Of a stretch of 51,538 bases of DNA, positions 19,219-42,942 are shown one piece after another. Every line of letters begins with the position of its first letter. The first letter of the stretch is position 1. Made by a program: the position numbers and the translations under genes. This stretch comes from Phycisphaerales bacterium. Its GTDB lineage: Bacteria > Planctomycetota > Phycisphaerae > Phycisphaerales > SM1A02. Under the pieces are notes generated by a model that worked only from the letters and a program-made list of their open reading frames with translations, had not been told where the DNA came from and made no database searches. The DNA is taken from positions 40,392-91,929 of the forward strand of contig JAKVBX010000019.1 in assembly GCA_022446795.1 (NCBI GenBank), given 5' to 3'.

Positions 19219-21291
19219 TCAGGACTGCCCGCCGCTGTAGATGGCCAATTGGCGGGAACGGAGGACCAACCACCCCAATACGAGGGTGATGCCACCCCAG
19301 ATCACTTCAAGTCGCCAGAAACTGGACAGAACGACCCGCCAGCCCACGTTACGCCCTTCCACGAGGTCCCCGACCGGGTGGTATTCGCCGAAGGCCCCCA
19401 GCATGAAGACCATGCCCTGGGCCAGCCCCCGGATAGTGGACTCGAAGCCCCATTTCATGACCTGCCCCATGTTGTCCCAGTCGACGTCATCGACCTTCTC
19501 GGGGAAGTACAGCGTGAGCGAGTCCGCCAGGTAGGGTGCCATCTGGCCACCGACGAAGACGGTGAAGGCACTCAGGCAGGCCACGGGGAAGTTCAGGAAG
19601 GTGGCGAAGAAGACGCCCAGCCCGGCCAGCACGCCCAACTTGATGAGAAGCACCAGCATGGCCCGGAGGAAGTTCGTCTCGAATCCGCCAACGCGGTACA
19701 GGATCTCGAACCTCCCCTGCTCGAAGAAGATCTGACCGAAGTACCGGCCCGGCGGTGGTTCGAAGTAGTTCAGGATGGTGATGTCGAGCGTGCCATCAGG
19801 ACGTACAAGCCCTGGCGGTATCCGAATCACCTGCGGCACCGTGGGGATGTACTCCCGGAGCAGAACATTCTCCCGATCATCATTGAACAGGAAGCCAGCC
19901 ACGTACCGTTCGTGCTCATCGGCCTGTCGGATGATGAACTGGTAGGACAGCGTGAGGGGCGAGAGACCGGTGCGGGCCTCCTGCAGGCCTTCGAAGCGGA
20001 ACGTCCGGCCCCCGGGCTGGCCATTGCGGCCCGGTGGAATGGTCCGCTGCTGTCGCTCCAGGTTCTCCAGCAGGTCCTTTCGCAGGCGCCACCGGACCTG
20101 GGGCAGGATGCCCTCCTCGCCATAGGTCGAGTACGCCGAGTCGTTCGCGATGATCCGATCGATCTCGGCGTCGATCTCCACCTCGTCAGGTGTCGCCATG
20201 ACTGGCTGGGTGTACTCCCTCGCAGCCAGAATCTCCTCGGCTACGACGAATCGATCCTCGTCAGCCGCCATGCCGGTCGAGACGTTCGTCGTTCGCAGGT
20301 ACTGGATGTACAGGAAGACCGAGACACCGGCGACCGCCAGGACGCAGCCATTCAGCAGGACGATGCCCAACCACTTTCCCACCAGGTACTGGAACTGCCC
20401 GACCGGCTTGGACATGACATGCCAGATATGCCGGTCTCGGATCTCGAAGGCAACGGTGCCACACGCCAGCAGCAATGTCATGCACGCCGCCAGCGCGAAG
20501 GTGTACTCCAGGCTCCGGCTCATGAAGTTCTGGACCTGGTATCGCAATGCCGAATCCGCATCCAGCGTCAGCGGGAGCAGCGGCAGCAGAATCAGGATCA
20601 CGATGATGAAGAGCACCGTCAGCCTGGTTCGCGACGCTTCCTTGATCACCGTATGGGCGACCGACATCACCTGGTTGGGCCAGGAGAGAATGACCAGGAG
20701 CAGGCGAACCAGGAGCAGGAAGGTAAAGGTCAACAGTCCGATGCCGGCGATGCCCAACTGCAGGTCGGACAATCCGAGCCAGCCCGTCAGCAGATAGAGC
20801 CCCAGCGTCGCGCCGACCGTGATGAGGAACGGGACGATCAGCCCGATCCAGGTGATCATCCACAACCACGCCAACGTCAGGCCGCCAACCACCCACGTCG
20901 TATCCGGCTGGGTCACGAGCCATCGCGGTGCCCACTCCAGCATCGCCTGAAAATCCTCCTGGAGCGCCAGGAAGACCGTGAACTGGGGATTGATCAGTTG
21001 CCCCTCTTCATCGAAGAGATCAGGCATGAACCGTTCATCAATCTCGTAGACCCGACCCGTCGTGACGATGGTGCCCGTCTCGCGGAGAACGCGCTGATTC
21101 TCCTCCGCCTCCGGTCCCATGAGGGCCTCGAAGATGACGCTTCGCTCCCGATCAGCCTCGTAGCTGAACGTCAGGATCGGAATGAAGTACCCCGCGCAGG
21201 CGGCGAGCGCGAGGACGCTCAGCACGATCCGCATCCACAGGCGTGACTGGAGCAACTGGAGGCGGCGATAGAACCCGACGATCGACTTCAT
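19219..21291 (-). CDS. ABC-2-type transporter permease with large extracytoplasmic insert
   Basis: 690 residues. One N-terminal helix (about 20-43) is followed by soluble sequence, then three or four helices (about 140-245), two more around 265-300 with the segment HVMSKPVGQFQYLVGKWLG, a long soluble region (about 350-540), and helices near 555-600 and 645-680. The KPVxxxxxxxGKxxG pattern is typical of ABC-2 permeases and recurs in the 27436 permease (SKPVGRPIFVIGKFIG). The ATG overlaps the stop of the ATPase gene by 4 nt (ATGA), so the two are translationally coupled and form one transporter. The large soluble insert is unusual for ABC-2 exporters and could contact a periplasmic partner. Substrate unknown. 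Confidence 0.75.
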   Translation of the reverse strand: MKSIVGFYRRLQLLQSRLWMRIVLSVLALAACAGYFIPILTFSYEADRERSVIFEALMGPEAEENQRVLRETGTIVTTGRVYEIDERFMPDLFDEEGQLINPQFTVFLALQEDFQAMLEWAPRWLVTQPDTTWVVGGLTLAWLWMITWIGLIVPFLITVGATLGLYLLTGWLGLSDLQLGIAGIGLLTFTFLLLVRLLLVILSWPNQVMSVAHTVIKEASRTRLTVLFIIVILILLPLLPLTLDADSALRYQVQNFMSRSLEYTFALAACMTLLLACGTVAFEIRDRHIWHVMSKPVGQFQYLVGKWLGIVLLNGCVLAVAGVSVFLYIQYLRTTNVSTGMAADEDRFVVAEEILAAREYTQPVMATPDEVEIDAEIDRIIANDSAYSTYGEEGILPQVRWRLRKDLLENLERQQRTIPPGRNGQPGGRTFRFEGLQEARTGLSPLTLSYQFIIRQADEHERYVAGFLFNDDRENVLLREYIPTVPQVIRIPPGLVRPDGTLDITILNYFEPPPGRYFGQIFFEQGRFEILYRVGGFETNFLRAMLVLLIKLGVLAGLGVFFATFLNFPVACLSAFTVFVGGQMAPYLADSLTLYFPEKVDDVDWDNMGQVMKWGFESTIRGLAQGMVFMLGAFGEYHPVGDLVEGRNVGWRVVLSSFWRLEVIWGGITLVLGWLVLRSRQLAIYSGGQS

Positions 21292-22475
21292 GACCGCTCG
21301 GACTCCTTGTCATCCGATCCCGGGGACAGGAGATCGTCGATCAGGCCTCGGTCGACATCCTCGGGTGCATCCGGGACGTCACCGGCCTCGACCTTCGCGA
21401 CGGGTTCCTCCGCCGTGAGCTCCTCCAGGACCGCATCGCGGACACCTGCGTCGGCCGCGGCATCAGCAGATTCCGTGGGCAGGGCTGCGCGGGCCGGTTC
21501 GTCATCCTCCCGGACCAGGGATTCGATCAGGGCCTCGGAGCCTGGCTCTTCACGCAGGAACGACGCCGTGGCACCACCTTCGCCGGCACCGGATGTTGCG
21601 ACCTTCTTGGCCTTCGCCTGCTCGACGACCTTCATGAAGACGTCCTCGAGTCGCTGGCGGGGCTCGCGGACCCGATCAATCGCGACGCCCTCCATGGACT
21701 GGATGACTTCCTCGACCTTCGCGATCGTCTCGGGCTTGAGCCGAGGCGCCTCGATGATCGTGTGATCCGCATCCTTGAGCATCTCGTCGACCGTGCCCTC
21801 CGCCTGGATGGTGCCGCCATAGAGCATCACCATCCGGTCACACACATCCTGGACATCCGAGAGCAGGTGAGAGCTCAGCAGGATCGTCTTCTTTCGGGCA
21901 CGCAGTTCCAGCAGCAGATCCTTGACCTGCTTGGTCCCGATGGGATCGAGCCCGGACGTGGGCTCGTCGAGAATCAGGAAGTCCGGATCATTGACCAGTG
22001 CCTGCGCGATGCCGATGCGGCGGGTCATGCCCTTGGAAAACTCTCCGATGGGCCGGTGGGCCACGTTGGCCAGGCCGACCATCTCGAGCAGTTCCTCGGT
22101 CCGACGATTGCGGGTGCTCCGGTCCAGTTGAAACAGGCGACCGTAATAATCGAGCGTCTCCCGGGCATTCAGGAACCGGTAGAGATAGGACTCCTCCGGC
22201 AGGAATCCGATGCGACGCTTGATGGCGACATCGGAGGGGTTCTTGCCAAAGACAACCAGGCGACCGGATGTCTTGTGCAGCAGCCCGAGGATCATCTTGA
22301 TGGTGGTGCTCTTGCCCGATCCGTTGGGACCGAGCAGCCCGAAGATCTCACCGGGCTCGATGTGAAAGTCGATGCGATCGACCGCAAGCGCCTTGGTCCG
22401 CATCCAGAAGTCGCGGAAGACCTTGGTCAGGCCAACGGCCTCGACCACCAACTCGTTTGCCGCATGACGAACCAT
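21288..22475 (-). CDS. ABC transporter ATP-binding protein with acidic C-terminal extension
   Basis: 395 residues from the ATG at 22475 (GGAG upstream); an in-frame extension to 22613 lacks support. Walker A GPNGSGKST is at about 49-57, signature FSKGMTRRIGIAQAL at about 147-160 (SKGM variant), and Walker B LILDEPTSGLDP at about 167-178. An H-loop follows in LLSSHLLSDV. It resembles the CcmA/NatA-type ATPases that pair with ABC-2 permeases. After the ATPase core the protein continues for about 120 residues of Ala/Glu/Asp-rich sequence ending SDDKESERS, which I cannot assign. It follows the hflK-like gene by 40 nt and overlaps the permease gene. Confidence 0.88.
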   Translation of the reverse strand: MVRHAANELVVEAVGLTKVFRDFWMRTKALAVDRIDFHIEPGEIFGLLGPNGSGKSTTIKMILGLLHKTSGRLVVFGKNPSDVAIKRRIGFLPEESYLYRFLNARETLDYYGRLFQLDRSTRNRRTEELLEMVGLANVAHRPIGEFSKGMTRRIGIAQALVNDPDFLILDEPTSGLDPIGTKQVKDLLLELRARKKTILLSSHLLSDVQDVCDRMVMLYGGTIQAEGTVDEMLKDADHTIIEAPRLKPETIAKVEEVIQSMEGVAIDRVREPRQRLEDVFMKVVEQAKAKKVATSGAGEGGATASFLREEPGSEALIESLVREDDEPARAALPTESADAAADAGVRDAVLEELTAEEPVAKVEAGDVPDAPEDVDRGLIDDLLSPGSDDKESERS

Positions 22476-22515: not shown

Positions 22516-24006
22516 CTATTTGCGTTGCTCGTCCCGCATGCCCTTGACGGCGCCCGTCTCGGAGTCGATGTTGAGCTGCCTCTGGGCCTTGCCCAGCGTG
22601 ATCTCATCCGCACGCATCATGTAGTCGGACGCAGTCCCCGACAGCAAGCTTGAATCGCCACGCTTCCTCGCTTCCAGGTCCGCCCGTCGGCGGATGTCAC
22701 GAACGGATTCAAGGCCGGAGATGTCGATGCCCATCGAGCCCAGCCCGGATGGCACGTACATGATCTCGGCATCCGGCTGTCCCATGACGCTGCCATAGGC
22801 CTCCAGCCACTTCTCAGCGATCACGAGCTCCGGGTGCTTGCGATAGGCCGGGAGCAGACCGGCGAACCGCCGCGCTTCCCGCCCGAGCGTCTGGTCGATG
22901 AGCGATTGGAATCGCTGCGCCGAACTGATGGCATTGGCCGCCTGGCCGGCGATCTCGTCGCCGTCGAAGAAGGCATTGATGGCGGCCAACCGGTCGCCGG
23001 CATCTGGAAGGTCCTGCTCCCAGGCCTCCTCGTATTCACGCATCAGCTTCGCCAGGGTGTTCACATTCTGCCCCGCGGCAGTGATCAGAACATCAGAGGC
23101 CTTCGTCTCGGCTCGATTGACCCGGGCCGCGGCATTCTGCTTGGCTTCGCTGAAGTTTTCCTGCAGCCGCTGGATGTACAGCGGCGGCTGGATCTCGTTG
23201 ACCACCATGACCGAGGTAATCCGCATTCCGCTCTCGATATCGTTGAGCACGGTCTGGGCCGAGTCACCGATGAGCTCCTGGACTTCCTCGTTGGAGAGTG
23301 ACTGAAGGTTCTCGAGCGTCTGTGACAGGCCCACATGGACTACCGCTCGCTCGACCGCCACTCGGACGATCGAATCGGCCGAACCGTCTGGAACCGACCG
23401 CAGGAACTTCACGGGATCGACGACGCTGTACTCGGTGCGAACCCGGACATGCGCGATCTGGCCACCCTGTGTCAGGAACGACCCGTCCTGGCCCGGCAGC
23501 AGCTGGTCCATCTGCGAGGCGTCCTGCATGCCCTTCTCGATGCCCTTCTCGACCATCGCCCGGGACATGAACGCGTTGAAGCCATCCACTTCCCGTCCAT
23601 CGGACTTGAACAGGACAAACTCGCCGATCGGCGGCGGCCAATTCATCTGCAGGCCTGGCTGAAGCCCCTCGCGATCGACGATTCGACCCCAGACCGTGGC
23701 CACGCCACTCTCCGCGGTGCCGACCGTCTTGAAGCCGGAGAACACGAACAGCACGAGCAGGACAACGATGACCAACTGAAGCACACGGAAGCTCAGCTGG
23801 AGCGCATCGGTCAGTGACCGGTTCGCCGGGTCCATCGCCTCTCGCAGTGCCGCAGCGGATCCGACATCCGCATCGACAACCAACTGGGCCGAGGCTGACC
23901 GGCGTGCCGGCTCGACTTCCATCGGCAGTTCTTCAACAGGGACGTCCGAGGCCGGTCCGTTGCCAAGCCCGTCCTGGTCCTGTTGGATATCGCGTTCGTC
24001 GCTCAT
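22516..24006 (-). CDS. hflK: SPFH/band-7 protein, HflK-like
   Basis: 496 residues. A long acidic cytoplasmic N-terminus is followed by one transmembrane helix (about 73-90, LQLVIVVLLVLFVFS) and an SPFH domain opening TVGTAESGVATVWGRIV, with DREGLQPGLQMNWPPP as in HflK. A coiled region rich in Ala/Glu (about 285-340, NAAARVNRAETKASDV) follows. The C-terminus is longer than in E. coli HflK (about 420 residues). HflK and HflC form a membrane cage around the FtsH protease in model bacteria; no ftsH is present here. It lies 1 nt downstream of the hflC-like gene and upstream of an ABC ATPase. The symbol reflects family position, not proven function. Confidence 0.8.
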   Translation of the reverse strand: MSDERDIQQDQDGLGNGPASDVPVEELPMEVEPARRSASAQLVVDADVGSAAALREAMDPANRSLTDALQLSFRVLQLVIVVLLVLFVFSGFKTVGTAESGVATVWGRIVDREGLQPGLQMNWPPPIGEFVLFKSDGREVDGFNAFMSRAMVEKGIEKGMQDASQMDQLLPGQDGSFLTQGGQIAHVRVRTEYSVVDPVKFLRSVPDGSADSIVRVAVERAVVHVGLSQTLENLQSLSNEEVQELIGDSAQTVLNDIESGMRITSVMVVNEIQPPLYIQRLQENFSEAKQNAAARVNRAETKASDVLITAAGQNVNTLAKLMREYEEAWEQDLPDAGDRLAAINAFFDGDEIAGQAANAISSAQRFQSLIDQTLGREARRFAGLLPAYRKHPELVIAEKWLEAYGSVMGQPDAEIMYVPSGLGSMGIDISGLESVRDIRRRADLEARKRGDSSLLSGTASDYMMRADEITLGKAQRQLNIDSETGAVKGMRDEQRK

Positions 24007-24007
24007 C

Positions 24008-25003
24008 TCAGGATCCTTGGTCAGCTCGACTCAGGGGCTTGCTGTCATCCTCGGCGTCGTCACCCGGCCGGGCGGCGTCGATGGGGTTCATGTACGCATC
24101 AGGCTGGGGAATCTCCAGACCGCCCTCGGGGGCCTCGGCCTTCATGAGATGCCAGGGCGCGAAGTCCGTATCGAGAATCACGGTCGTGTTCTTCGCCAGC
24201 GCCTTCTCCAGCGTGTCGATCCAGATCAGGAAGATCGCCAGTTCCTCGTCCTGGCTCATCTCCTCGAGGTACCGGGCCCCCCGCTCGTCCGCCCGCGTCC
24301 GGATCTCCTGGGCCCGCTGCTCGGCGAACGCATAGATCTTGTCGCGGATCGTCTGGGCCTCGGACCCAATACGCTCGGCCTCGGCTTCGCCCCGGGCTCG
24401 TTCGTTCTCGGCCAGGGTATTGCGTTCAGCCTGCATGCGATCAATCACCTGCGTGGTGGTCTTCTCGCGAAGCAGGATTCGACTCACGCCGGCGGAGACC
24501 GGCTTGACGCCCTGCGCGACACTGGCCTGCATCCGCTTGAGGATCTGACCCTCGATCTCGTCCAGCGTGCTGCTGGGGCCGAGCAGATCGCTGAACTCGT
24601 ACTCGCTCACGACGGAGACCGCATCACGGAACTGTGAGAACAGGGCCGCACGAGCGTCCATCATCTCGGGGTAGGACTGGTAGAAGTGAAGCGGGCCTTC
24701 ACCTTCCTCGTCGACCTTCCACAGCAGGAAGGCCTTGACGACGACCTGCAGGCCATCCGTCGTCTGGAGGTTCTCCTCACCAGTCTCCAGGAGCTGAACC
24801 CGCTTGTCGTAAGTCGTCACGCTGTCCGCAAAGAACGGCCAGCGGAAGTGGAGCCCGGGCTCGCGAATGATGCTTGATGCGTCAACCTTGCCGAAGTGGC
24901 TCTTGAGCGCCACTTGGTTGAAACCGACGGAGTAAGTCATGCTGAACAGTACAAGGACGAACAGGATGACCAGGCCGACGATGATTGCTACTGCCTTCTT
25001 CAT
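24008..25003 (-). CDS. hflC: SPFH/band-7 protein, HflC-like
   Basis: 331 residues, the HflC length. One N-terminal membrane helix (about 4-25, AVAIIVGLVILFVLVLFSM) leads into SPFH sequence: QVALKSHFGKV, EPGLHFRWPF and TYDKRVQLLETGEENLQT, all recognisable HflC features. The coiled segment RARGEAEAERIGSEAQ and the C-terminal DEELAIFLIWIDTLEKAL (cf. the HflC DPELA-F-R-LEAL region) confirm it. It starts 2 nt after the stop of the polytopic SPFH gene. The tail (about 295-331) is acidic. Confidence 0.87.
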   Translation of the reverse strand: MKKAVAIIVGLVILFVLVLFSMTYSVGFNQVALKSHFGKVDASSIIREPGLHFRWPFFADSVTTYDKRVQLLETGEENLQTTDGLQVVVKAFLLWKVDEEGEGPLHFYQSYPEMMDARAALFSQFRDAVSVVSEYEFSDLLGPSSTLDEIEGQILKRMQASVAQGVKPVSAGVSRILLREKTTTQVIDRMQAERNTLAENERARGEAEAERIGSEAQTIRDKIYAFAEQRAQEIRTRADERGARYLEEMSQDEELAIFLIWIDTLEKALAKNTTVILDTDFAPWHLMKAEAPEGGLEIPQPDAYMNPIDAARPGDDAEDDSKPLSRADQGS

Positions 25004-25005
25004 GG

Positions 25006-27216
25006 CTATGGAGAGTCCTCATCGGTCAGGAGGGTGTCACTGTAAATCGTGCCCGGCGAGGCATACTCGCTGAGGCTCACGTTCACTTTCATGCGCTCGG
25101 GGGAGATCCCCACGATGTACTTGCGGAGATTGCTGAAGTTGCGGTTGTAGGCCTGCATGATCCACCACTGCCGGTAGAGCTCCGGAGCGGCGCGATACGC
25201 GGACATCTGCCCTCGGATCCGACTCGCCTGGGTTCGCTGCTCCATCAGGTCGACCCAGCGATCACGCTCTGCCCTGGCGATGAGCTGTGCCGCACCCCCG
25301 CCGCCGCGGCGGACCAGCGTTGCGGCGTCAAGCGTCTTCTGCTCGCGGACCTCAGCAGCATCCTTGGCTTCCTTGGAGTCCTCGCCATGGGTATCGACAG
25401 CCGTGTCATAGGCATCTTCCGCAGCATTCACGGCATCGATGGCCGCCAGGACCTCGTCGACCATGCCGGGATTACCGACCGCCTGCGTGAGCACGATCAC
25501 TCGACGCCGCTGCGCCTCCGCGATCTCCGTGTCGCTCTGCTGCATGGCGATATCCAGGTCCTCGAAGGAAGACGCCAGGTTGGCCACCGGACTGACACTC
25601 GGAAGCGTGACGGCGAGCAGTTCGACGCCGGTGTCATGCTCATCAAAGGCCTTCCGGATCCGTTCCAGCAACTGGCCGGACAACTGGGCCCGCTCGGCAG
25701 AGAGCACGTCATCCAGGCCCAGTCCGCCAAAGAACTTCGTGGCCTCGGAAACGGCCACCGCCTTGAGCGCCCGTTCCCGTTCGGTCAGACGGCTTCCGCG
25801 AATCCGCTGCTCGGAGCCGAAGGACAGGTACTGGAGCAGCCCCTCCTCCTCGCCTTCACCGGCCGCTCGGATTCGATAGGACAGTCCAATCTGGATGTCG
25901 ACCAGGGCATGAATCGAACCAAACCCGGCATCAGCCTCGGTATCGACGCCGGCCTCGTCCAAGGCCAGTCCGACGCTGTTGACCTCGTCACCGGCCATCG
26001 AGGATCGACCGACGATGAACGGTTCCATGACGTCGCCGGCGACCAGCTTGATCTCGTCCTTACCCCAGAGCGAGCGGGTCGGCGGCTCCTTCTCCTGTCC
26101 GTTCAACGGCAGGTCCCGCTCAACCGTCACGTCATAGAGACTCGCGGATTCCAGCGGCCAGGGGAGCTTCCAGAACAAGCCAGAGTCGTGCACCTGCTGC
26201 CCATCCGAGGCGGCGATGATCTCACCATGCCGGAGCCGCAGCCCCTCTTCGCGGCCGTCCACGACCACCATGGTGCTCAGGCTGACCAGGGCCAGGGCAC
26301 CCAGGACCAGCAGCCAGCCACCGCTTCGAAGGACCAGCTGGTATCCCCACGAACTGGAGATGTCGAAACCGAACTGGTAGTTGACCGCATCGTTCATGGA
26401 TCGCACGAACGAGTCGGGCTGCGCCAACAGGCTCAAGGCCCTGGAGTCGAATCCGGGCCTCGGGTAGTCACCCGCCACGCGGGGACGGTAGATATTCAGG
26501 ATGATGTTGAGGACCACCTCGGCAGCAGCCACGAGCATGAAGATCGGAATGCTCCAGGCCACGACTTCCAGCACGTCCTCGACATGGAAGAAGCGGAAGA
26601 TCACGCCCACCGCGACAGCCAGCAGGACCAGGGCGTTGCCGACCATCACGCCAGCACCGGCACGCAGGTTCTGCCACGCCTTCAACTCCGCCATGCCGTT
26701 GAGGTAGCGAGAGAAGATGAAGGTCACCGCGGTAAAGCTCAGGCACAGCGCGACAAGCCAGCCCTTGCCATCGGTCTTGATGAACTGCACGTCGGTCGCA
26801 TCGTCCGTCGTTCGCCCCAGCCAGTCCAGCATCTGCCAGGCCAGGACGCCCATGGAGGCCACGTACAGCACGCTCGTGATGGGCAGGGCCCACCGATACA
26901 GGAGGCGAAGTCGTCGAGCAGCAACCCGGACCTCATCCCCCGCACGATCGAAGATCGACTCGCCGGCAATGCCACCGGCAGCGAGTTCATCCTCCTCGAG
27001 TGCCTCGAGACGCTCGAGCTTGTGCTGGTTGAAGACGATGATCAGACCGATCCACACCAGCAGTGGCGGGAAGGCCCAGATGGAGGCCATCATCGACGGA
27101 CTGTCCCCAACGGCCAAGCCGTAGACCAGGAAGGTCAGGGCAACGACCAATTGCAGACAGAAGCCGAATGCGGCGACGTTTGTGGCCCTCTGGTAGGCCA
27201 GGTGATCGACTCTCAT
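25006..27216 (-). CDS. Polytopic membrane protein fused to an SPFH/band-7 domain
   Basis: 736 residues from the ATG at 27216. The N-terminal half has about six hydrophobic helices (near 14-35, 45-62, 112-132, 155-175, 190-210 and 215-237), and a seventh at about 298-320 precedes a divergent SPFH domain. Its opening, GEIIAASDGQQ then HDSGLFWKLPWPLES, corresponds to the PGLHFKLPWP region of stomatin/HflK proteins. A long Ala/Glu-rich coiled region with AEAQRRR follows, then a C-terminus with RAAPELYRQWWIM. It differs from usual SPFH proteins, which have one membrane segment. It is the first gene of the operon. A TACGAT element 8 nt before the ATG suggests a nearly leaderless mRNA; there is no ribosome site. 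Confidence 0.78.
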   Translation of the reverse strand: MRVDHLAYQRATNVAAFGFCLQLVVALTFLVYGLAVGDSPSMMASIWAFPPLLVWIGLIIVFNQHKLERLEALEEDELAAGGIAGESIFDRAGDEVRVAARRLRLLYRWALPITSVLYVASMGVLAWQMLDWLGRTTDDATDVQFIKTDGKGWLVALCLSFTAVTFIFSRYLNGMAELKAWQNLRAGAGVMVGNALVLLAVAVGVIFRFFHVEDVLEVVAWSIPIFMLVAAAEVVLNIILNIYRPRVAGDYPRPGFDSRALSLLAQPDSFVRSMNDAVNYQFGFDISSSWGYQLVLRSGGWLLVLGALALVSLSTMVVVDGREEGLRLRHGEIIAASDGQQVHDSGLFWKLPWPLESASLYDVTVERDLPLNGQEKEPPTRSLWGKDEIKLVAGDVMEPFIVGRSSMAGDEVNSVGLALDEAGVDTEADAGFGSIHALVDIQIGLSYRIRAAGEGEEEGLLQYLSFGSEQRIRGSRLTERERALKAVAVSEATKFFGGLGLDDVLSAERAQLSGQLLERIRKAFDEHDTGVELLAVTLPSVSPVANLASSFEDLDIAMQQSDTEIAEAQRRRVIVLTQAVGNPGMVDEVLAAIDAVNAAEDAYDTAVDTHGEDSKEAKDAAEVREQKTLDAATLVRRGGGGAAQLIARAERDRWVDLMEQRTQASRIRGQMSAYRAAPELYRQWWIMQAYNRNFSNLRKYIVGISPERMKVNVSLSEYASPGTIYSDTLLTDEDSP

Positions 27217-27224
27217 GGATCTGG

Positions 27225-27230
27225 ATCGTA
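27225..27230 (-). promoter_or_regulatory. -10-like element TACGAT for the SPFH-ABC operon
   Basis: The minus strand reads GTTACGATCC with 8 nt between the hexamer and the ATG at 27216, so transcription would start within a nucleotide or two of the start codon. Confidence 0.4.
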
Positions 27231-27277
27231 ACTCAGCAATCGGGGACCATTGTGGAGGGACGCCCTCCTGATACGGC

Positions 27278-27435: not shown

Positions 27436-28569
27436 ATGATCCAGCAACTCCTCGCCATCATCCGGAATACGTTCTTCGAGAGCGTCCGCCAGCCCGTGGT
27501 GCTGGTGGTCCTGATGGGGGCCACGCTCCTGATCATCCTGAGCAACCCCCTCTCGGCCTTCACCATGGACGAGAACCAGCGGATGCTCATCGATATCGGG
27601 CTCGCAACGATCTTCCTGGCCGGTGCCCTGCTGTCGGGCTTCATCGCCACGAGCGTGCTGGGCCGGGAGATCAGCAACAAGACGGCGCTGACCGTGATCT
27701 CCAAGCCGGTGGGCCGACCGATCTTCGTCATCGGCAAGTTCATCGGGGTCTCGCTGGCGATGATGCTGGCGACCTTCTTCCTCTTCCTCGTGTTCATGAT
27801 GGTGGAGACCCACGCGGTCCTCGAGAACGTCCGTGATCCAATCCACGTTCCGGTCGTGGTCTTCGGCGTCGGCGCCTTCATCCTGGGCTGGGCCGCTGCA
27901 GCCTGGTGCAACTACTTCTACAACATGGTCTTCACCAGTTCGGTGATCTTCTTCACCACGCCCCTGCTGTTCGTCGGGTGGTTGATAGCGATCAACTTCG
28001 GTCCCGACTTCAGCCCCCGCCCCATCGGACTGGGCCTCAAGCCTGACTTCTGGCTGGCCATCCTGGCGATGCTGATGGCCATCTTCATGATGTGCGCCAT
28101 CGCCGTGGCCATCAGCACCCGCGCCGGACAGTTGATGACGATCCTGCTGACCATCGCCCTGTTCCTGCTGGGCCTGCTGTCGGACTCGATCTTCCTCTCG
28201 GGCATGAAGGGACTCGAGAACCGCTGGCTGGATTCCGCCCGCGAACAAGGCCTCACCCAGCGGGAGGAAGTCGTCTCCTCCATCACGTTCACCACGGGCG
28301 AGATCGAAGAGCTCACCAACGTCGTGGACGTGTCCACGGTGCCACTGACCGACCTGGCCTCTTCCGGCGAAATCGCGCTCTACTGGACCTACCAGGTCGG
28401 CTATGCCGTCCTGCCGAACTTCCAGGCGATGTGGTTGACCGACGCGATCACCCAGAAGCACTCGGTCCCACCGGGCTACGTCTGGGAAGCAGCCCTGTAT
28501 GCCGGAGCCTATTCCTGCGCCATCATCGCGGTAGGCATCATCCTGTTCCAGCGGCGCGAAGTCGGCTGA
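27436..28569 (+). CDS. ABC-2-type transporter permease
   Basis: 377 residues with about six helices: near 20-36, 55-73, 105-125, 135-175 (two), 195-240 (two) and 350-370. The segment EISNKTALTVISKPVGRPIFVIGKFIG (residues about 77-103) is the conserved cytoplasmic region of ABC-2 permeases and matches the equivalent region of the 19219-21291 permease. No ATPase gene adjoins it; the ATPase at 21288-22475 is the nearest candidate partner, across the divergent gap. No ribosome site precedes the ATG. Substrate unknown. Confidence 0.75.
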   Translation: MIQQLLAIIRNTFFESVRQPVVLVVLMGATLLIILSNPLSAFTMDENQRMLIDIGLATIFLAGALLSGFIATSVLGREISNKTALTVISKPVGRPIFVIGKFIGVSLAMMLATFFLFLVFMMVETHAVLENVRDPIHVPVVVFGVGAFILGWAAAAWCNYFYNMVFTSSVIFFTTPLLFVGWLIAINFGPDFSPRPIGLGLKPDFWLAILAMLMAIFMMCAIAVAISTRAGQLMTILLTIALFLLGLLSDSIFLSGMKGLENRWLDSAREQGLTQREEVVSSITFTTGEIEELTNVVDVSTVPLTDLASSGEIALYWTYQVGYAVLPNFQAMWLTDAITQKHSVPPGYVWEAALYAGAYSCAIIAVGIILFQRREVG

Positions 28570-36536: not shown

Positions 36537-39500
36537 ATGGCCTCGAGTCGCCCCACCGTACGTGGTCTTACCACGTCTTCGTTGGTTATCGGTCTTTCAT
36601 TTGCCGCTGTTGCACTGGGCCGCCCTGGTGAATTGACGAGTTCATCCTCGGATGGCCAGCCGCCCTACCGTGGCGCCGGCATGCCAGTCTGCGACAGCAG
36701 CAATACGGTCGTGACCGAATCCACTGACCTGGACACCCTCAATGGGACCGTCGTCTGCTCCGGCAGCGCCGGCACATCCGACCACTACTACGGTCGCAGC
36801 CATGATCTCTCGACCCTCGACGCCGGCGGTAATGAGATCGTCCTTGAGTGCGTCAAGTGGGGCATATACAGCAACGATCTCGAGGTCACCGCCACGATCA
36901 ACATCTTCAGCGATGACGATGGCGATCCATCGGGTGGCATGTCGCTCCTGGGCAGCCTCTCCGACACGATTCCAGTGAGCAGCGAGCCATTCTTCATGAC
37001 CTTCACCGGTGATGGCTCCATCGTCCTGCCGCAGGGGTTCATCTTCGTTGAGATGTTCATCCCGGGCTCCAGCCTGTCCGAATCACACTTCGTTGGCGGC
37101 AATAACGGCGGACAGTCCTCTCCAAGCTGGATCCGTACCGCTGACGCCAGTTGTGGCATCGGCGCCTGGACCGAACTGGACAACATCGGCTGGGAAAGCG
37201 TCAACTGGGTCGAGGCCATCGAGGTCTCCATCGAAGCCCCGGGCGATCCCTGCGACGAGGCCCTCCCGGATTGTCCCGCCGACGTTTCCGGCCCCTCGAA
37301 CGTACCGGACAACGTGGTCTCGGTGGATGATGTCCTCAAGATCATCGCCAACTACGGCCAGGTCGGTGATGGCACCTTCCGCCCCGTTGGCGACTGCCAC
37401 CCCGCACCCAATGGCGACTGTGACGTCGACGTCGACGACCTCCTCGAGGTCATCGGTGCCTTCGGCGCGGTCTGTGAGGACCCCGCGCCGGAACTGGCGA
37501 TGAACGAGGTCCGGACCAATCACGGCGGCTTTGATACCACCGAGTACATCGAGCTCATCGGTGAGCCCGGCGCATCACTCGATGGCCTGTCCTGGATCGT
37601 CATCGGCGACGGTTCCGGTGACAGCTCCGCCGGGCACCTCGAGACCGCGGTGTCGCTCGACGGCGCGTCCCTCGACGCCAATGGCCTCTACTCCGTCATC
37701 CTTGAGAACCTGTTCGAGAACAGCGACCCCGTGACCCATGCCGTGGTTCGAAACCTGAACTACAACGGCAGCGGCACGGTCGATCTCGATACGAATGACG
37801 ACGGCGAACTCGACGTGGTCCTTTGGGACGAGATCATCGACTGCGTCTCACTCATCGGCGAGGGCGATGACGCCCTGGCCTACTGCTCCGCAACGATCGG
37901 CCCGGACGGCCCCTTCGTGGCCGTCGGCGGCTACCGGTGCCCCGACGGCATCGGTGACTGGGTCATGGCGCCGTTCGACCTGTCCTGCCTCGATACGCCG
38001 GGTGCCCTGAATGCCTGCAATGAGCCCGACTCTGACAATGACAATGTCCCGGACTGTGCCGACAACTGCGTCGACACCCCCAACGAGGACCAGGCCGACT
38101 GCGACAACGATGGCGAAGGCGATGCCTGCGACCTCGTGACCGACTGCAACCTCAATGGCATCCCGGACGTGTGCGAGACTGACTGCAATGCCAACGGCGT
38201 GCCTGATGACTGCGATGTCAACGATGGCAACTCCTTTGATTGCAACGAAAACGGCATCCCGGACGACTGCGAGAATGACTGCAACTCCAACGGCGTCCCT
38301 GATGACTGCGACATCGATAATGGCGACTCCGACGACGGCGACGGCAACGGCATCCCCGACGAGTGCGAAGGCAGCGTCATCGTCATCAACGAGATCCAGT
38401 TCGATCCCGCCAGTGACATCTCCGGTGATGCCAACGGCGACGGCGTCCGCGACGGCTCACAGGACGAGTTCGTCGAGATCGTGAACAAATCCGGCGCCGA
38501 CCTGTGCCTCGGTGGCGGCACGATCTCCGATGCTGCTGGTCTTCGTCACGTGTTCCCGCCGGACACACCCGCCCTCGGAGATGGCTGCGTCATCGTGGTC
38601 TTCGGTGGTGGCGACCCGGCCACGTTCGCGGCTGACTTCGGCGACGCGGTGATCCAGGTGGCCTCCACCGGCTTCCTGGGCCTCAACAACGGTGGCGACA
38701 CCGTGACTCTCGCCCTGGCTGACGGGACCGTCCTGGATCAGCACACGTACGATGGCAACGGTGGCCAGGATCAGTCCATCACTCGTTTCCCGGACGTCTA
38801 CGGCGTGGACTTCTTCGATCACAGCGTGGCTTCGCCCGGCGGATTCCTGTTCTCGCCAGGCACGACGATCAATGGCACCACCTTCGGTGGCAGTGACTGT
38901 GGCGCCGCCAGTGGTTCCGATGCCGACAGCGATGGCGTCCCGGACGGATGCGACAACTGTGAGCTCTTCAACCCGGGCCAGGAGGACTGCAACGACAATG
39001 GCGTCGGTGATGCCTGCGACATCAACAATGGCGACAGCCAGGACGCTGACTCGGACGGTATCCCGGACGAGTGCCAGGTCGTGGCGAGCGGAGCCTGGAT
39101 CAACGAGTTGCACTATGACAATTCCGGCGGCGACATCGATGAGATGATCGAGGTGGTCATCCAGGATGGCACCGATCCCAATAGCGTGACCGTGACGCTG
39201 TACAACGGCAACGGCGGGAACCCCTACGGGTCCGCCATGGTCGTCGGGACGGACTTCACGGCCGGTGAGAGTGGAAGCGGATACACGATCTACTCGATCA
39301 TCCTGGCTTCCAACGGGCTCCAGAACGGAGCACCCGATGGGCTGTGCATCGATGTCAATGGCAACGTTGCCGAGTTCCTCTCCTATGAGGGCACGATTAC
39401 GGCCGCCAGTGGCCCCGCCGCGGGGATGACCTCCGTTGACATCGGCGTTTCCGAAAGCAGCCAGACGACCGTAGGTAGCTCCCTGGGCCTCACAGGCACA

Positions 39501-39590
39501 GGAAGCGGCCCTGGCGACTTCGTGTGGAGTGTCCTGGCGGATTCCGCCAACCCGGGTAATACCAACGTGGGGCAGACCATCAGCCCCTGA
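36537..39590 (+). CDS. Giant secreted protein with lamin-tail-like domains, thrombospondin-3 repeats and a dockerin-like module
   Basis: 1017 residues. The ATG follows AGGAGAAGG, and a signal peptide is visible (LVIGLSFAAVALG). Residues about 30-240 form an unassigned beta-rich domain. A divergent dockerin-like module with two EF-hand-like helices (VSVDDVLKII and VDVDDLLEVI) occupies about 246-315. Three lamin-tail-domain-like modules open LAMNEVRTNHGGFDTTEYIE (about 320), VINEIQFDPASD (about 613) and WINELHYDNSGGDIDE (about 855). Between them lie calcium-binding thrombospondin-type-3 repeats (DxDxDGxxD and NGxPDDC units, about 495-612 and 793-849). Such proteins are surface-displayed, calcium-stiffened adhesins or structural proteins in planctomycetes. 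It ends ISP without a sorting tail. A strong terminator follows. Confidence 0.8.
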   Translation: MASSRPTVRGLTTSSLVIGLSFAAVALGRPGELTSSSSDGQPPYRGAGMPVCDSSNTVVTESTDLDTLNGTVVCSGSAGTSDHYYGRSHDLSTLDAGGNEIVLECVKWGIYSNDLEVTATINIFSDDDGDPSGGMSLLGSLSDTIPVSSEPFFMTFTGDGSIVLPQGFIFVEMFIPGSSLSESHFVGGNNGGQSSPSWIRTADASCGIGAWTELDNIGWESVNWVEAIEVSIEAPGDPCDEALPDCPADVSGPSNVPDNVVSVDDVLKIIANYGQVGDGTFRPVGDCHPAPNGDCDVDVDDLLEVIGAFGAVCEDPAPELAMNEVRTNHGGFDTTEYIELIGEPGASLDGLSWIVIGDGSGDSSAGHLETAVSLDGASLDANGLYSVILENLFENSDPVTHAVVRNLNYNGSGTVDLDTNDDGELDVVLWDEIIDCVSLIGEGDDALAYCSATIGPDGPFVAVGGYRCPDGIGDWVMAPFDLSCLDTPGALNACNEPDSDNDNVPDCADNCVDTPNEDQADCDNDGEGDACDLVTDCNLNGIPDVCETDCNANGVPDDCDVNDGNSFDCNENGIPDDCENDCNSNGVPDDCDIDNGDSDDGDGNGIPDECEGSVIVINEIQFDPASDISGDANGDGVRDGSQDEFVEIVNKSGADLCLGGGTISDAAGLRHVFPPDTPALGDGCVIVVFGGGDPATFAADFGDAVIQVASTGFLGLNNGGDTVTLALADGTVLDQHTYDGNGGQDQSITRFPDVYGVDFFDHSVASPGGFLFSPGTTINGTTFGGSDCGAASGSDADSDGVPDGCDNCELFNPGQEDCNDNGVGDACDINNGDSQDADSDGIPDECQVVASGAWINELHYDNSGGDIDEMIEVVIQDGTDPNSVTVTLYNGNGGNPYGSAMVVGTDFTAGESGSGYTIYSIILASNGLQNGAPDGLCIDVNGNVAEFLSYEGTITAASGPAAGMTSVDIGVSESSQTTVGSSLGLTGTGSGPGDFVWSVLADSANPGNTNVGQTISP
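38025..38373 (+). repeat. Thrombospondin-3 type coding repeats
   Basis: Repeated units encode CNANGVPDDCD, CNENGIPDDCEN and CNSNGVPDDCDI with related GAC-TGC-AAC DNA. They are calcium-binding rod repeats within the 36537-39590 protein, not a DNA-level array such as CRISPR. Confidence 0.7.
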
Positions 39591-39920: not shown

Positions 39921-39948
39921 CTTGTGCATGCCTGACGGCATGCCCAAG
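39921..39948 (+). promoter_or_regulatory. Strong leader hairpin upstream of the GACC-repeat protein gene
   Basis: CTTG-T-GCATGCC (39921-39932) pairs with GGCATGC-C-CAAG (39937-39948) around a TGAC loop: 11 pairs with a single mismatch. A GT-rich single-stranded stretch follows. It could be an mRNA-stabilising or regulatory element. Confidence 0.5.
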
Positions 39949-40064
39949 TGTTTCGTGTGTTTGTTCGTGTGTGTCTGTGTGGGGGGAGTGTGAGGCTTCA
40001 CCCCGCGTCCCGGCGCGAGCCGGTTCGCCAAACCCGTGTTCCCGATTGGAGGGGAATAGAAGAA

Positions 40065-42752
40065 ATGAAAACCCTACCGTCTTGTCTTTGTTTTTTGGGT
40101 CTCGCAGCTGGCACGGCCATGGCTGGAAGCGCAGTCATCATGGACCAGATCGGTCCGGATGATGGTGCTGACATTGATACCAGCAACATCCTGGCCAACC
40201 AGATCTTCGAGGCCGGCTTTGCTCAGTACGACATCGCAGTAATCGACGACTTCGAAGGCACCGGCCTTCAGGGCTCGTCCATGGCGTTGGTCGTCAGTGG
40301 TTGGAACGGTTATGCCGGCATCGCCGGTATCTCCGCCCTTCAGGTCAACTTCTACCAGACATTTGAGGACGCTGGCGTCAGCCTGGTTGGCTACGTCAAT
40401 GACTCCGTCGCAGGTACGCCGGATGCAGACCCCAACTGGGGCCTTGCCGGTTATGACCTCATCGGAATGACTGCCACGTCCACGCCGTGGGCCATCGGCC
40501 TCGGCACGCAGTGGGCCGGCATGATCCCGACCAACGAGTTCGGCACCAACGGTCAGACCGGTGTTGCGATCTCCACCGTCGGCGACCTCGTCGCCTACCA
40601 GTGCAACCCCGCTGGCGGATTCGGCTTCGGCCCCTTCCAGCAGGTTGCCTACAACGCTGCATTCCGCGTTCTCGGCGGCACCGGCAATGCCTGCGATCTG
40701 CCGCTTCCGACCGAGTGCAACGCTGACGTCAGCGGTCCCTCCGGTGTCCCGGATGGTGTCGTGGGCGTCGACGACGTCCTCGCGATCATCGGCACCTACG
40801 GCGAAGTCGGCGACGGCACCAGCCGCCCGCAGGGCGACTGCTTCCCGCTGCCTGACGGCAACTGCACCGTCGACGTGGATGACCTCCTTGAGGCCATCGG
40901 CCAGTACGGCAATGACTGCCGTCCGCTCGGTGCTTGCTGCTTCGGCGTCGACGGATGCCAGGAGAACGAGCTCGAGTCCAACTGTGAAGCCCTCGGTGGC
41001 GATTGGCTCGGCGGCGGCTCCGCCTGTGCTGCATGCGTCAGTGGCGCTTGCTGCCTTGGCGACGGCTCCTGCATCCAGGCCACTCCTGAGGACTGCACGG
41101 GCGCCTACCAGGGTGACAGCACCGACTGCGGTTTCGTCACCTGCGTCCCGGCACCTGACAACGACACCTGCGACGGCGCAGAGGTCATCGGCAATGGCGA
41201 CACCGGTATTGACGTCACCTATGCCCTGACCAATGGTCCGGCCGACTTTGATGGCACGCTCTGTGCAAACTTCAGTGTCGACCAGATCTTCAACGATGTC
41301 TGGTACTCCTACACCGCAGATTGCGACGGCAGCCTCGAGATCAGCCTGTGCAACCAGGTCGACTTCGACAGCCGTATCGCCATCTACGATGCTTGCGGCG
41401 GCACCATGCTCGCCTGCAACGACGATGCTGACAGCGGCCTGTGCGGACTCACGTCCGAGCTGGTTTACGCGGTCGCCGCTGGCGACTCCGTCATCATCCG
41501 CGTCGGTCGGTACTCCGAAGGCGGCGGCACGCCGAGCACGGGCGTCATGTCCGTCAACTGCGTGATCCCGTCCGAGGGTGCTTGCTGCGTCGGTGAGACG
41601 TGCTACGACCTGCTCCCCGATGACTGCACCGCCTTCGGCGGCAGTTACGAGGGTGCTGGAACTGACTGCCTCGGCACTCAGTGTGGCGTCACCAACAATG
41701 ACTGCGCAAGTGCAGAGACCGTTGACTGCAGCGGCTCGGCCTTGTTCGACACGTCCAACGCTTTCGATAGTGGCTTCGGTGAGCCCGATGCCACGCAGTG
41801 CGATGGTACGTACCTTGACTGGGGCGCCAGCCCTGACGTCTGGTTCGTGACCACGCCTGATATCGACGGCACCATGGACATCAGCCTCTGCGACGCTGCC
41901 TCCTACGACACCTCCCTGGTGCTGTACGAAGGTAGTGATTGTGGTTCCCTCGTCCAGGTCGCCTGCAACGGTGACAGCACGGTCGAGAGTGGATGCCAGT
42001 CCTACTACTCCGGCATCTACGGCCACCCCGTCACCTCGGGTAATTCCTATTACATCCGTATCGGTGGCTGGAACGGCGCAACTGGTCCTGGCAACCTGAC
42101 CCTGACCTGCCTCGACAGTGGTGCCACTGGCGCCTGCTGCGTTGGCGGTGCCTGCGTTGCTGATGACTACACCGCTGATCAGTGTGCTACCTCTGGTGGT
42201 ACCTGGTACGCCGGTGAAGCCTGTGCTGATGTTGACTGCCCCGATGACGTCGCCTGCACCACCGGAAACGGTGCCAACACCGTCCTTCCGGACGGCGCTT
42301 GGATCGCTGGTACGGCTGACTCGGGTGCTGGCTACTTCCGTGCCGCTTGGGTCTCCGCTCCGGCGGTCTCATCCATGTCGGTCACGGGCCTGAGCCTCAT
42401 CTACAACGCTGGTTGGAGCGCCTGCTCCGACGCCAGCACGCTGCCCATGGGCTACAACCTCATGGACGGTGGCTACGGCAGCCTCAACGGTGGCTCTGGT
42501 GCCAACTATGCACCAACCAACCTGAGTTACGCTGGCGTGTACCCGCTCAGCATCTGGGACTTCGCATGCAATTACGACGGCTCTCTCGGCAGCGTCGTCT
42601 ACGCGGGTGCGAACTCCGAGTCCAACGGCACCGGCGAATGCTGGTTCCTGTGGATGTCCTCCACCGCTGACGGTGAAGGTCAGTCATCGCTCGATGACGG
42701 CACCGGTTGGGTCGAAGAAACCTTCGGTCTCAACTACTGCATCACTGAGTGA
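40065..42752 (+). CDS. Giant secreted Cys-rich protein with four GACC repeats and PPC-like domains
   Basis: 895 residues from the ATG at 40065 (GGAGGGG upstream; a longer frame lacks a ribosome site). A signal peptide is visible (LCFLGLAAGTAMA). Residues about 25-215 form an unassigned N-terminal domain. A divergent dockerin-like module occupies about 218-285. Then come four Cys-rich repeats beginning GACCFG, GACCLG, GACCVG and GACCVG (residues 289, 327, 505 and 689), each with later spaced Cys and a GG motif. Two beta-sandwich domains (about 366-500 and 545-683) resemble bacterial pre-peptidase C-terminal domains: DVWYSYTADCDGSLEISLC and DVWFVTTPDIDGTMDISLC. The C-terminus (about 740-895) is Gly/Tyr/Ser-rich. 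Codons favour GGT and GCT more than neighbours, which may reflect high expression. Likely an abundant surface structural protein. Confidence 0.8.
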   Translation: MKTLPSCLCFLGLAAGTAMAGSAVIMDQIGPDDGADIDTSNILANQIFEAGFAQYDIAVIDDFEGTGLQGSSMALVVSGWNGYAGIAGISALQVNFYQTFEDAGVSLVGYVNDSVAGTPDADPNWGLAGYDLIGMTATSTPWAIGLGTQWAGMIPTNEFGTNGQTGVAISTVGDLVAYQCNPAGGFGFGPFQQVAYNAAFRVLGGTGNACDLPLPTECNADVSGPSGVPDGVVGVDDVLAIIGTYGEVGDGTSRPQGDCFPLPDGNCTVDVDDLLEAIGQYGNDCRPLGACCFGVDGCQENELESNCEALGGDWLGGGSACAACVSGACCLGDGSCIQATPEDCTGAYQGDSTDCGFVTCVPAPDNDTCDGAEVIGNGDTGIDVTYALTNGPADFDGTLCANFSVDQIFNDVWYSYTADCDGSLEISLCNQVDFDSRIAIYDACGGTMLACNDDADSGLCGLTSELVYAVAAGDSVIIRVGRYSEGGGTPSTGVMSVNCVIPSEGACCVGETCYDLLPDDCTAFGGSYEGAGTDCLGTQCGVTNNDCASAETVDCSGSALFDTSNAFDSGFGEPDATQCDGTYLDWGASPDVWFVTTPDIDGTMDISLCDAASYDTSLVLYEGSDCGSLVQVACNGDSTVESGCQSYYSGIYGHPVTSGNSYYIRIGGWNGATGPGNLTLTCLDSGATGACCVGGACVADDYTADQCATSGGTWYAGEACADVDCPDDVACTTGNGANTVLPDGAWIAGTADSGAGYFRAAWVSAPAVSSMSVTGLSLIYNAGWSACSDASTLPMGYNLMDGGYGSLNGGSGANYAPTNLSYAGVYPLSIWDFACNYDGSLGSVVYAGANSESNGTGECWFLWMSSTADGEGQSSLDDGTGWVEETFGLNYCITE

Positions 42753-42917: not shown

Positions 42918-42923
42918 TATGCT
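42918..42923 (+). promoter_or_regulatory. -10-like element TATGCT for the kinase gene
   Basis: GGTCTATGCTGAGG fits TANNCT. It overlaps the upstream alternative ATG (42919), so transcription would begin after it; this favours the ATG at 42943. Confidence 0.4.
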
Positions 42924-42942
42924 GAGGCCCCGGGGATGCGAC

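Follow-up and report, generated by a model that had tools for sequence, protein, structure and literature searches.

A third SPFH protein with a predicted CDF-fold membrane module in a conserved HflC/HflK locus of Planctomycetota

The closest described counterparts of the protein analysed here are HflK and HflC of E. coli, an assembly reported as 24 alternating subunits surrounding FtsH (PMC12048511) and as facing the periplasm (PMC2636767). A survey of SPFH proteins distinguished 12 subfamilies, and it lists no type 3 (HflK/C) member for the three planctomycetes that it covered (PMC2636767). Other SPFH assemblies are joined by a further membrane protein, as in the E. coli QmcA-YbbJ complex and in stomatin, which associates with AQP1 and UT-B according to a report whose title uses the word 'encapsulates' (PMC12407830). 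CDF transporters (YiiP/FieF, ZnT/SLC30) have a six-helix transmembrane fold, and their domains are described with both termini in the cytoplasm (PMC1868760).

Here we describe a 736-residue protein, referred to as Poly, encoded on the minus strand at 25006-27216 of a 51,538-nucleotide stretch of a Phycisphaerales genome (the window; GCA_022446795.1, contig JAKVBX010000019.1, positions 40,392 to 91,929), which combines an HflK-type SPFH part with an N-terminal six-helix module of predicted CDF fold. Poly resembles E. coli HflK in its SPFH domain, HflK-like C-terminal region, co-directional neighbours and position on the K side of the tree, but it has seven membrane segments rather than one, is the third SPFH gene of its operon and, like the operon's own HflK-like protein, scores under the TIGR01933 cut-off. 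With CDF transporters the module has in common the six-helix fold and a similarity at the profile level; unlike them, Poly lacks the metal ligands, the signature, the C-terminal domain and a PF01545 match, and its chain runs on into an SPFH domain. Stomatin and QmcA also bring an SPFH assembly together with another membrane protein, but in those cases the other protein is a chain of its own, whereas Poly carries a transporter-fold module inside the SPFH chain. SPFH and CDF proteins are each known; the literature searched, which included few subscription journals, yielded no polytopic SPFH protein, no CDF-SPFH fusion and no case of the two combined in a conserved third subunit. The preliminary description of this gene had observed the membrane helices fused to an SPFH domain, an observation that is confirmed, and had interpreted the protein as a possible third, membrane-embedded subunit of an HflC/HflK cage, an interpretation that is partly supported and extended; the CDF-fold module without a metal site and the exporter setting of the locus had been missed.

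Poly and its gene neighbourhood

The Poly frame is open on the minus strand from 27216 to 25006 (736 aa and a stop), and its start at 27216 is supported because the initial methionine is common to 41 of 44 diverse relatives; an alternative in-frame ATG lies 39 codons upstream (27333) and is not needed. A plus-strand ORF over the same region (24985-27231) was rejected as an antisense shadow frame because, of 151 genomes searched in the order, 150 contain a relative of the minus-strand protein. These matches reach E 2.1e-34 or lower in 148 genomes and are weak in two (E 1.7e-6 and 1.5e-7), while one genome has none. The best 80 of 276 relatives are labelled Phycisphaerales, Phycisphaerae, Planctomycetota or similar, with one labelled just 'bacterium', and a plasmid collection gave no match. 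Across the phylum, a profile of the membrane module (A7) matches 83 of 392 sampled genomes, a count that may be too low because the profile was built from 33 of the 44 diverse rows (A2), leaving out the ten most diverged and L111.

As had been described, Poly leads its operon directly ahead of HflC-like and HflK-like genes, at the head of a minus-strand run, and it stands first in the co-directional triplet in 40/40 loci of the order. The HflC-like SPFH protein (24008-25003, minus strand, 331 aa) matches Band_7 at E 2.3e-19 and TIGR01932 with 100.8 bits, below the cut-off of 134.4; the HflK-like SPFH protein (22516-24006, minus strand, 496 aa) matches Band_7 at E 1.3e-8 and TIGR01933 with 56.8 bits, below the cut-off of 159.4. 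They are followed on the same strand by an ABC exporter ATPase (21288-22475; ABC_tran E 1.4e-32, best NCBIfam match TIGR01188 drrA, below cut-off), whose frame opens at 22613 and whose start we place near 22475, and by a 690-aa ABC-2-like permease (19219-21291), assigned from a weak ABC2_membrane_2 match (E 0.31) and synteny; two relatives of this permease match the same family at E 4.9e-5 and 3.7e-8. The last of the seven locus genes, P660 (17212-19194, minus strand), encodes 660 aa with one or two N-terminal hydrophobic segments and a mean column identity of 53% over 22 rows; it is present in 38/40 order loci, matches no Pfam family at E 0.01 and yielded none shared among 22 relatives. The remaining member is a divergent ABC-2-like permease on the plus strand (27436-28569; ABC2_membrane_2 E 3.6e-5, below cut-off), found in 39/40 order loci. 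Elsewhere on the plus strand of the window lie two large proteins (36537-39590 and 39948-42752), of which one matches a lamin tail domain and the other a T9SS-associated galactose-binding-like domain, and a protein kinase domain (42919-45363; Pkinase E 7.3e-43) with TPR-like matches further on.

Conservation of this order was assessed in 40 order loci (L035-L074), chosen non-randomly from the 150 genomes with a match, in 40 phylum-wide loci (L105-L144), chosen non-randomly from the phylum match list, and in 80 named loci. Co-directional Poly-HflC-HflK, in that order, occurs in 40/40 order, 35/40 phylum-wide and 73/80 named loci, and in the seven named loci without it the stretch ends within 1.13 kb past the Poly match. 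All seven locus genes are present in 38/40 order, 60/80 named and 15/40 phylum-wide loci. The phylum-wide exceptions to the triplet comprise L113 (no HflK seen), L122 (Poly alone), L144 (a 3.9 kb contig), L133, an ordinary single-anchor HflK/HflC pair counted in the Poly set, and L131, which by the triplet criterion has only a P1B ATPase, along with a 1162-aa SPFH frame. The latter frame (L131:8375-11860) lies near the ATPase with no separate HflC or HflK match, and is possibly a fusion or a misread frame.

A P1B heavy-metal ATPase is present in 35/40 phylum-wide loci, counted with a model built from 4 of those 40 loci, and in 29 of the 35 it directly follows HflK (L108, L109, L115, L117, L119, L121 and L124-L130 among the examples). 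Three of these ATPases were scanned, and all scored above the TIGR01525, TIGR01512 and TIGR01511 cut-offs, so the metal is not told. The ATPase is found in 9/40 order loci and in none of the 80 named loci; P1B-type matches occur in 51/51 genomes of the window's family, but with the gene outside the operon, and the best match in the window's genome lies on another contig (C34) with 42% identity. An ArsP_1-type permease precedes Poly in three loci, L124, L127 and L130, confirmed by Pfam in the two scanned, and none of the ABC genes of the Poly locus was recognised in these three. The frames ahead of the strongly diverged Poly in these loci are 525-557 aa long (L124:7168-8763, L127:8040-9614 and L130:6654-8324).

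The SPFH part and its HflC and HflK partners

Hydropathy and the predicted model place an anchor helix at Poly residues 299-319 (26260-26322, minus strand), followed by the SPFH (Band 7) domain at residues 320-545 (25582-26259), which includes a poorly conserved insert at about 371-436, and by long helices with an HflK-like C-terminal region at residues 546-713 (25078-25581), assigned from the model and a weak sequence match. HDSGLFWKLPWP, the stretch by which the SPFH-like segment had been recognised, sits at residues 343-354. The band-7 similarity claimed for the part beyond residue 320 is borne out by a Pfam Band_7 (PF01145) match at residues 480-570 (E 3.5e-10; score 40.6 bits, cut-off 23.6), and the same family matches 43/44 diverse relatives at E 0.05. 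Poly further matches hflK TIGR01933 at residues 478-582 (E 1.2e-11; 44.5 bits, under the equivalog cut-off of 159.4) and hflC TIGR01932 at 308-365 (E 0.0037, below cut-off), and residues 637-702 weakly match HflK 7vhq_E by sequence (E 0.0049). Structure prediction of the monomer, which had been proposed as a check, likewise points to an SPFH fold: the model aligns with the mouse stomatin SPFH domain 4fvj at Z 12.6 (2.2 A over 113 residues), and the top Foldseek match for the SPFH part is HflK 7vhq_E (E 3.4e-10).

We then placed Poly relative to its partners in a midpoint-rooted SPFH tree of 88 rows (28 Poly, 30 HflC and 30 HflK), which includes some long rows and thirteen rows of deviating composition. 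Separate clades were recovered for Poly (98/99), HflC (100/100) and the 28 operon-type HflK rows of the phylum (98/94). Poly falls on the K side (100/100) with E. coli HflK, yet in a clade separate from the operon's HflK. Two K-side rows, E. coli HflK itself and the ordinary HflK found in L133, belong to neither clade. HflK as a whole forms one group in only 22% of 200 bootstrap trees, and the tree gives no settled order among Poly, the phylum's HflK and E. coli HflK. On visual inspection, each of the three clades repeats lineages present in the others, suggesting joint inheritance of the genes for Poly, HflC and HflK from an early planctomycete. The suggestion of a third SPFH protein beside HflC/HflK partners thus holds, the protein being of HflK type, with its own clade (98/99) and within a conserved triplet.

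The window's genome, which is about 96% complete, contains three Band_7 matches, all in the Poly operon, and one FtsH (M41) match, so any HflK/C-type partner of FtsH would have to come from this operon. These matches make FtsH control a serious alternative, albeit one that we consider unlikely: just as E. coli HflK/C surrounds FtsH (PMC12048511), Poly, HflC and HflK would enclose FtsH in a quality-control dome. The pseudo-transporter module would then recruit or shield membrane substrates, a task that inactive members of membrane-enzyme families perform in other systems. However, the ftsH match lies on another contig (C1), a single-sequence search of 160 loci (E 1e-3, with a query frame containing HExGH and Walker A) found no FtsH, and the conserved neighbours of Poly are exporters. 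E. coli hflK and hflC likewise do not adjoin ftsH in the stretch examined, and therefore unlinked genes say little against this alternative.

The membrane module, its CDF fold and its metal site

The N-terminal part of Poly consists of a CDF-like transmembrane domain of six helices that has lost the metal-site residues (residues 1-243; 26488-27216, minus strand) and of the most conserved part of the protein, a linker that is probably cytoplasmic (residues 244-298; 26323-26487). Hydropathy segments lie at residues 14, 44, 109, 154, 189 and 218, with the anchor at 301, the anchor region corresponding to helix 289-315 of the predicted model; the six or seven helices described ahead of the SPFH-like segment are accordingly six plus the anchor by both hydropathy and model. 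Within the first 340 residues, seven segments were counted in 37 and six in 3 of the 40 order loci. In the 40 phylum-wide loci, where starts are less sure and the set includes the ordinary single-anchor HflK of L133, seven were counted in 21, six in 11, five in 5, and eight, four and one in one locus each. Six helices and one anchor would be compatible with both the CDF and the HflK/C topologies. Mean pairwise column identity over 53 Poly rows is 0.784 for the linker, 0.489 for the module, 0.389 for SPFH2 and 0.18 for the insert.

The full-length AlphaFold2 model of Poly has a mean pLDDT of 80.5 and a pTM of 0.52, so the arrangement of the domains is uncertain although the single domains are usable, and residues 1-298 modelled alone reach a pLDDT of 80.7 and a pTM of 0.78. 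For the full-length model, the first 13 structure matches listed are all CDF transporters, and the QmcA-YbbJ entry 8z5g is among those listed. The model of the module alone aligns with YiiP 8f6k_B at Z 18.2 (2.9 A over 201 residues), and CDF proteins fill the top 31 places among the 50 matches listed (Z 18.2 to 9.0), ahead of the first unrelated entry at Z 8.3. The aligner re-ranks Foldseek matches only, and helical bundles may reach a Z of about 13-14 through arrangement alone; the CDF match stands above this level, both by its Z of 18.2 and because a single family occupies the top of the list without interruption. Foldseek itself gave none for the module at E 0.001, its best CDF match being at E 0.079 with probability 1.00. 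On the predicted model, the membrane module of Poly has the CDF (YiiP/ZnT) transmembrane fold. The CDF cytoplasmic C-terminal domain is absent from the model, in which helix 6 leads through a linker of about 55 residues to the anchor and the SPFH domain.

Relatedness to CDF proteins was also evaluated independently of structure by profile comparison, with hhalign E-values that refer to single comparisons rather than database searches. Against 26 CDFs (A6, E. coli FieF and 25 from the order, out of 31 available rows), the 44 diverse Poly sequences scored 95.7% (E 1e-8, Poly residues 1-239) and a set of 32 rows 92.2% (E 5.8e-7, residues 1-237), while the narrow 53-row Poly profile gave just 28.4% (E 6.1e-4). 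Against the CDF membrane domain, realigned module sets scored 93.1% (44 rows), 95.0% (34) and 94.4% (19 from outside the order), and ten control pairs, of reversed sequences or two ABC permease families, stayed at 0.2-1.2%. The ten strongly diverged Poly rows scored 1.4% against CDF but 97.5% against the remaining Poly rows. Pfam PF01545 was unmatched by Poly at E 1 and is absent from the nine families listed for the 44 relatives at E 0.05; Pfam matches on the module are at chance level (DUF2569, E 0.58), and NCBIfam gave no match inside it ahead of the anchor. The profile comparisons nonetheless provide computational support that the module is related to CDF proteins.

In the 44- and 32-row alignments the register of FieF helix 2 to Poly is +2, and in all three alignments that of helix 5 is +37; in the narrow 53-row alignment FieF D49 stands opposite a gap. 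FieF D45, D49, H153 and D157 thereby correspond to Poly residues 47, 51, 190 and 194. At these four positions D, E, H or C occurs three or four times in 26/26 CDFs, whereas 32 of the 44 Poly rows have none and 12 have one; when a shift of one residue is allowed, the counts become 25 rows with none, 17 with one, and one row each with two and three. The published CDF signature (PMC1868760) was found in 0/80 Poly-set frames, which include the ordinary HflK of L133, and in only 14/26 CDFs. Glu233 in helix 6 is invariant (44/44 Poly rows), and an invariant intramembrane residue of this kind could mean that ion chemistry is kept. Poly might then still be a transporter of protons, monovalent ions or another solute through an altered site that includes Glu233, with the SPFH dome gating or collecting the flux, a reading that the good conservation of the module (0.489, 53 rows) and a reported CDF protein with Na+(Li+,K+)/H+ antiport (PMC6440370) would favour. 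We judge it quite improbable in view of the CDF ligand set being found in 0/44 rows, the signature in 0/80 against 14/26 CDFs, and the CDF C-terminal domain being absent from the model. It is very improbable that the module is an unrelated helix bundle merely resembling CDF proteins, since the Foldseek E-values of 0.079 and up, the one weak profile comparison (28.4%) and the frequency of middling scores among helical bundles are set against a Z of 18.2, 31 CDF entries ahead of any unrelated one among the 50 listed, and profile-level CDF matches with clean controls.

A candidate role in organising exporters

In the reading that we prefer, and to which we give an even chance of being correct, an HflK/C-type assembly organises exporters and has Poly as its third subunit, a pseudo-transporter. 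The elements of this reading that computation supports are the CDF fold and profile relatedness of the module, its missing ligands, the K-type nature of the SPFH part and the HflC/HflK gene order. The N-terminal membrane part of Poly would derive from a CDF transporter that lost its metal site and cytoplasmic C-terminal domain. Poly would join HflC and HflK in an HflK/C-like periplasmic dome, with its six-helix module sitting in the membrane floor of that dome, and the module and conserved linker may serve as a docking or positioning collar, a pseudo-transporter scaffold, for the co-encoded exporters. Inactive relatives of membrane enzymes have become adaptors elsewhere, which provides an analogy for such a module. 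Exporters are the candidate cargo because the conserved neighbours of the locus are exporters, and for the window's order the docked exporter would be the ABC-2 system, whereas for most of the other lineages sampled it would be the P1B heavy-metal ATPase. A fuller version, possible but tentative, is that a three-subunit SPFH dome is old in Planctomycetota, has one subunit in which a complete CDF fold is reused as an inactive floor or as a ring for docking, and houses a P1B heavy-metal ATPase, an ABC-2 exporter or both.

Domes of SPFH proteins are described as able to surround membrane proteins (PMC12048511, PMC12407830), and the cargo that they recruit is often unknown. The Poly locus makes cargo selection by SPFH proteins testable, because Poly carries a transporter-derived domain and candidate cargos can be named from the genes around it. 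Poly is thus a candidate pseudo-transporter and, if this is true, the planctomycete assembly would be a transporter compartment built partly out of a dead transporter.
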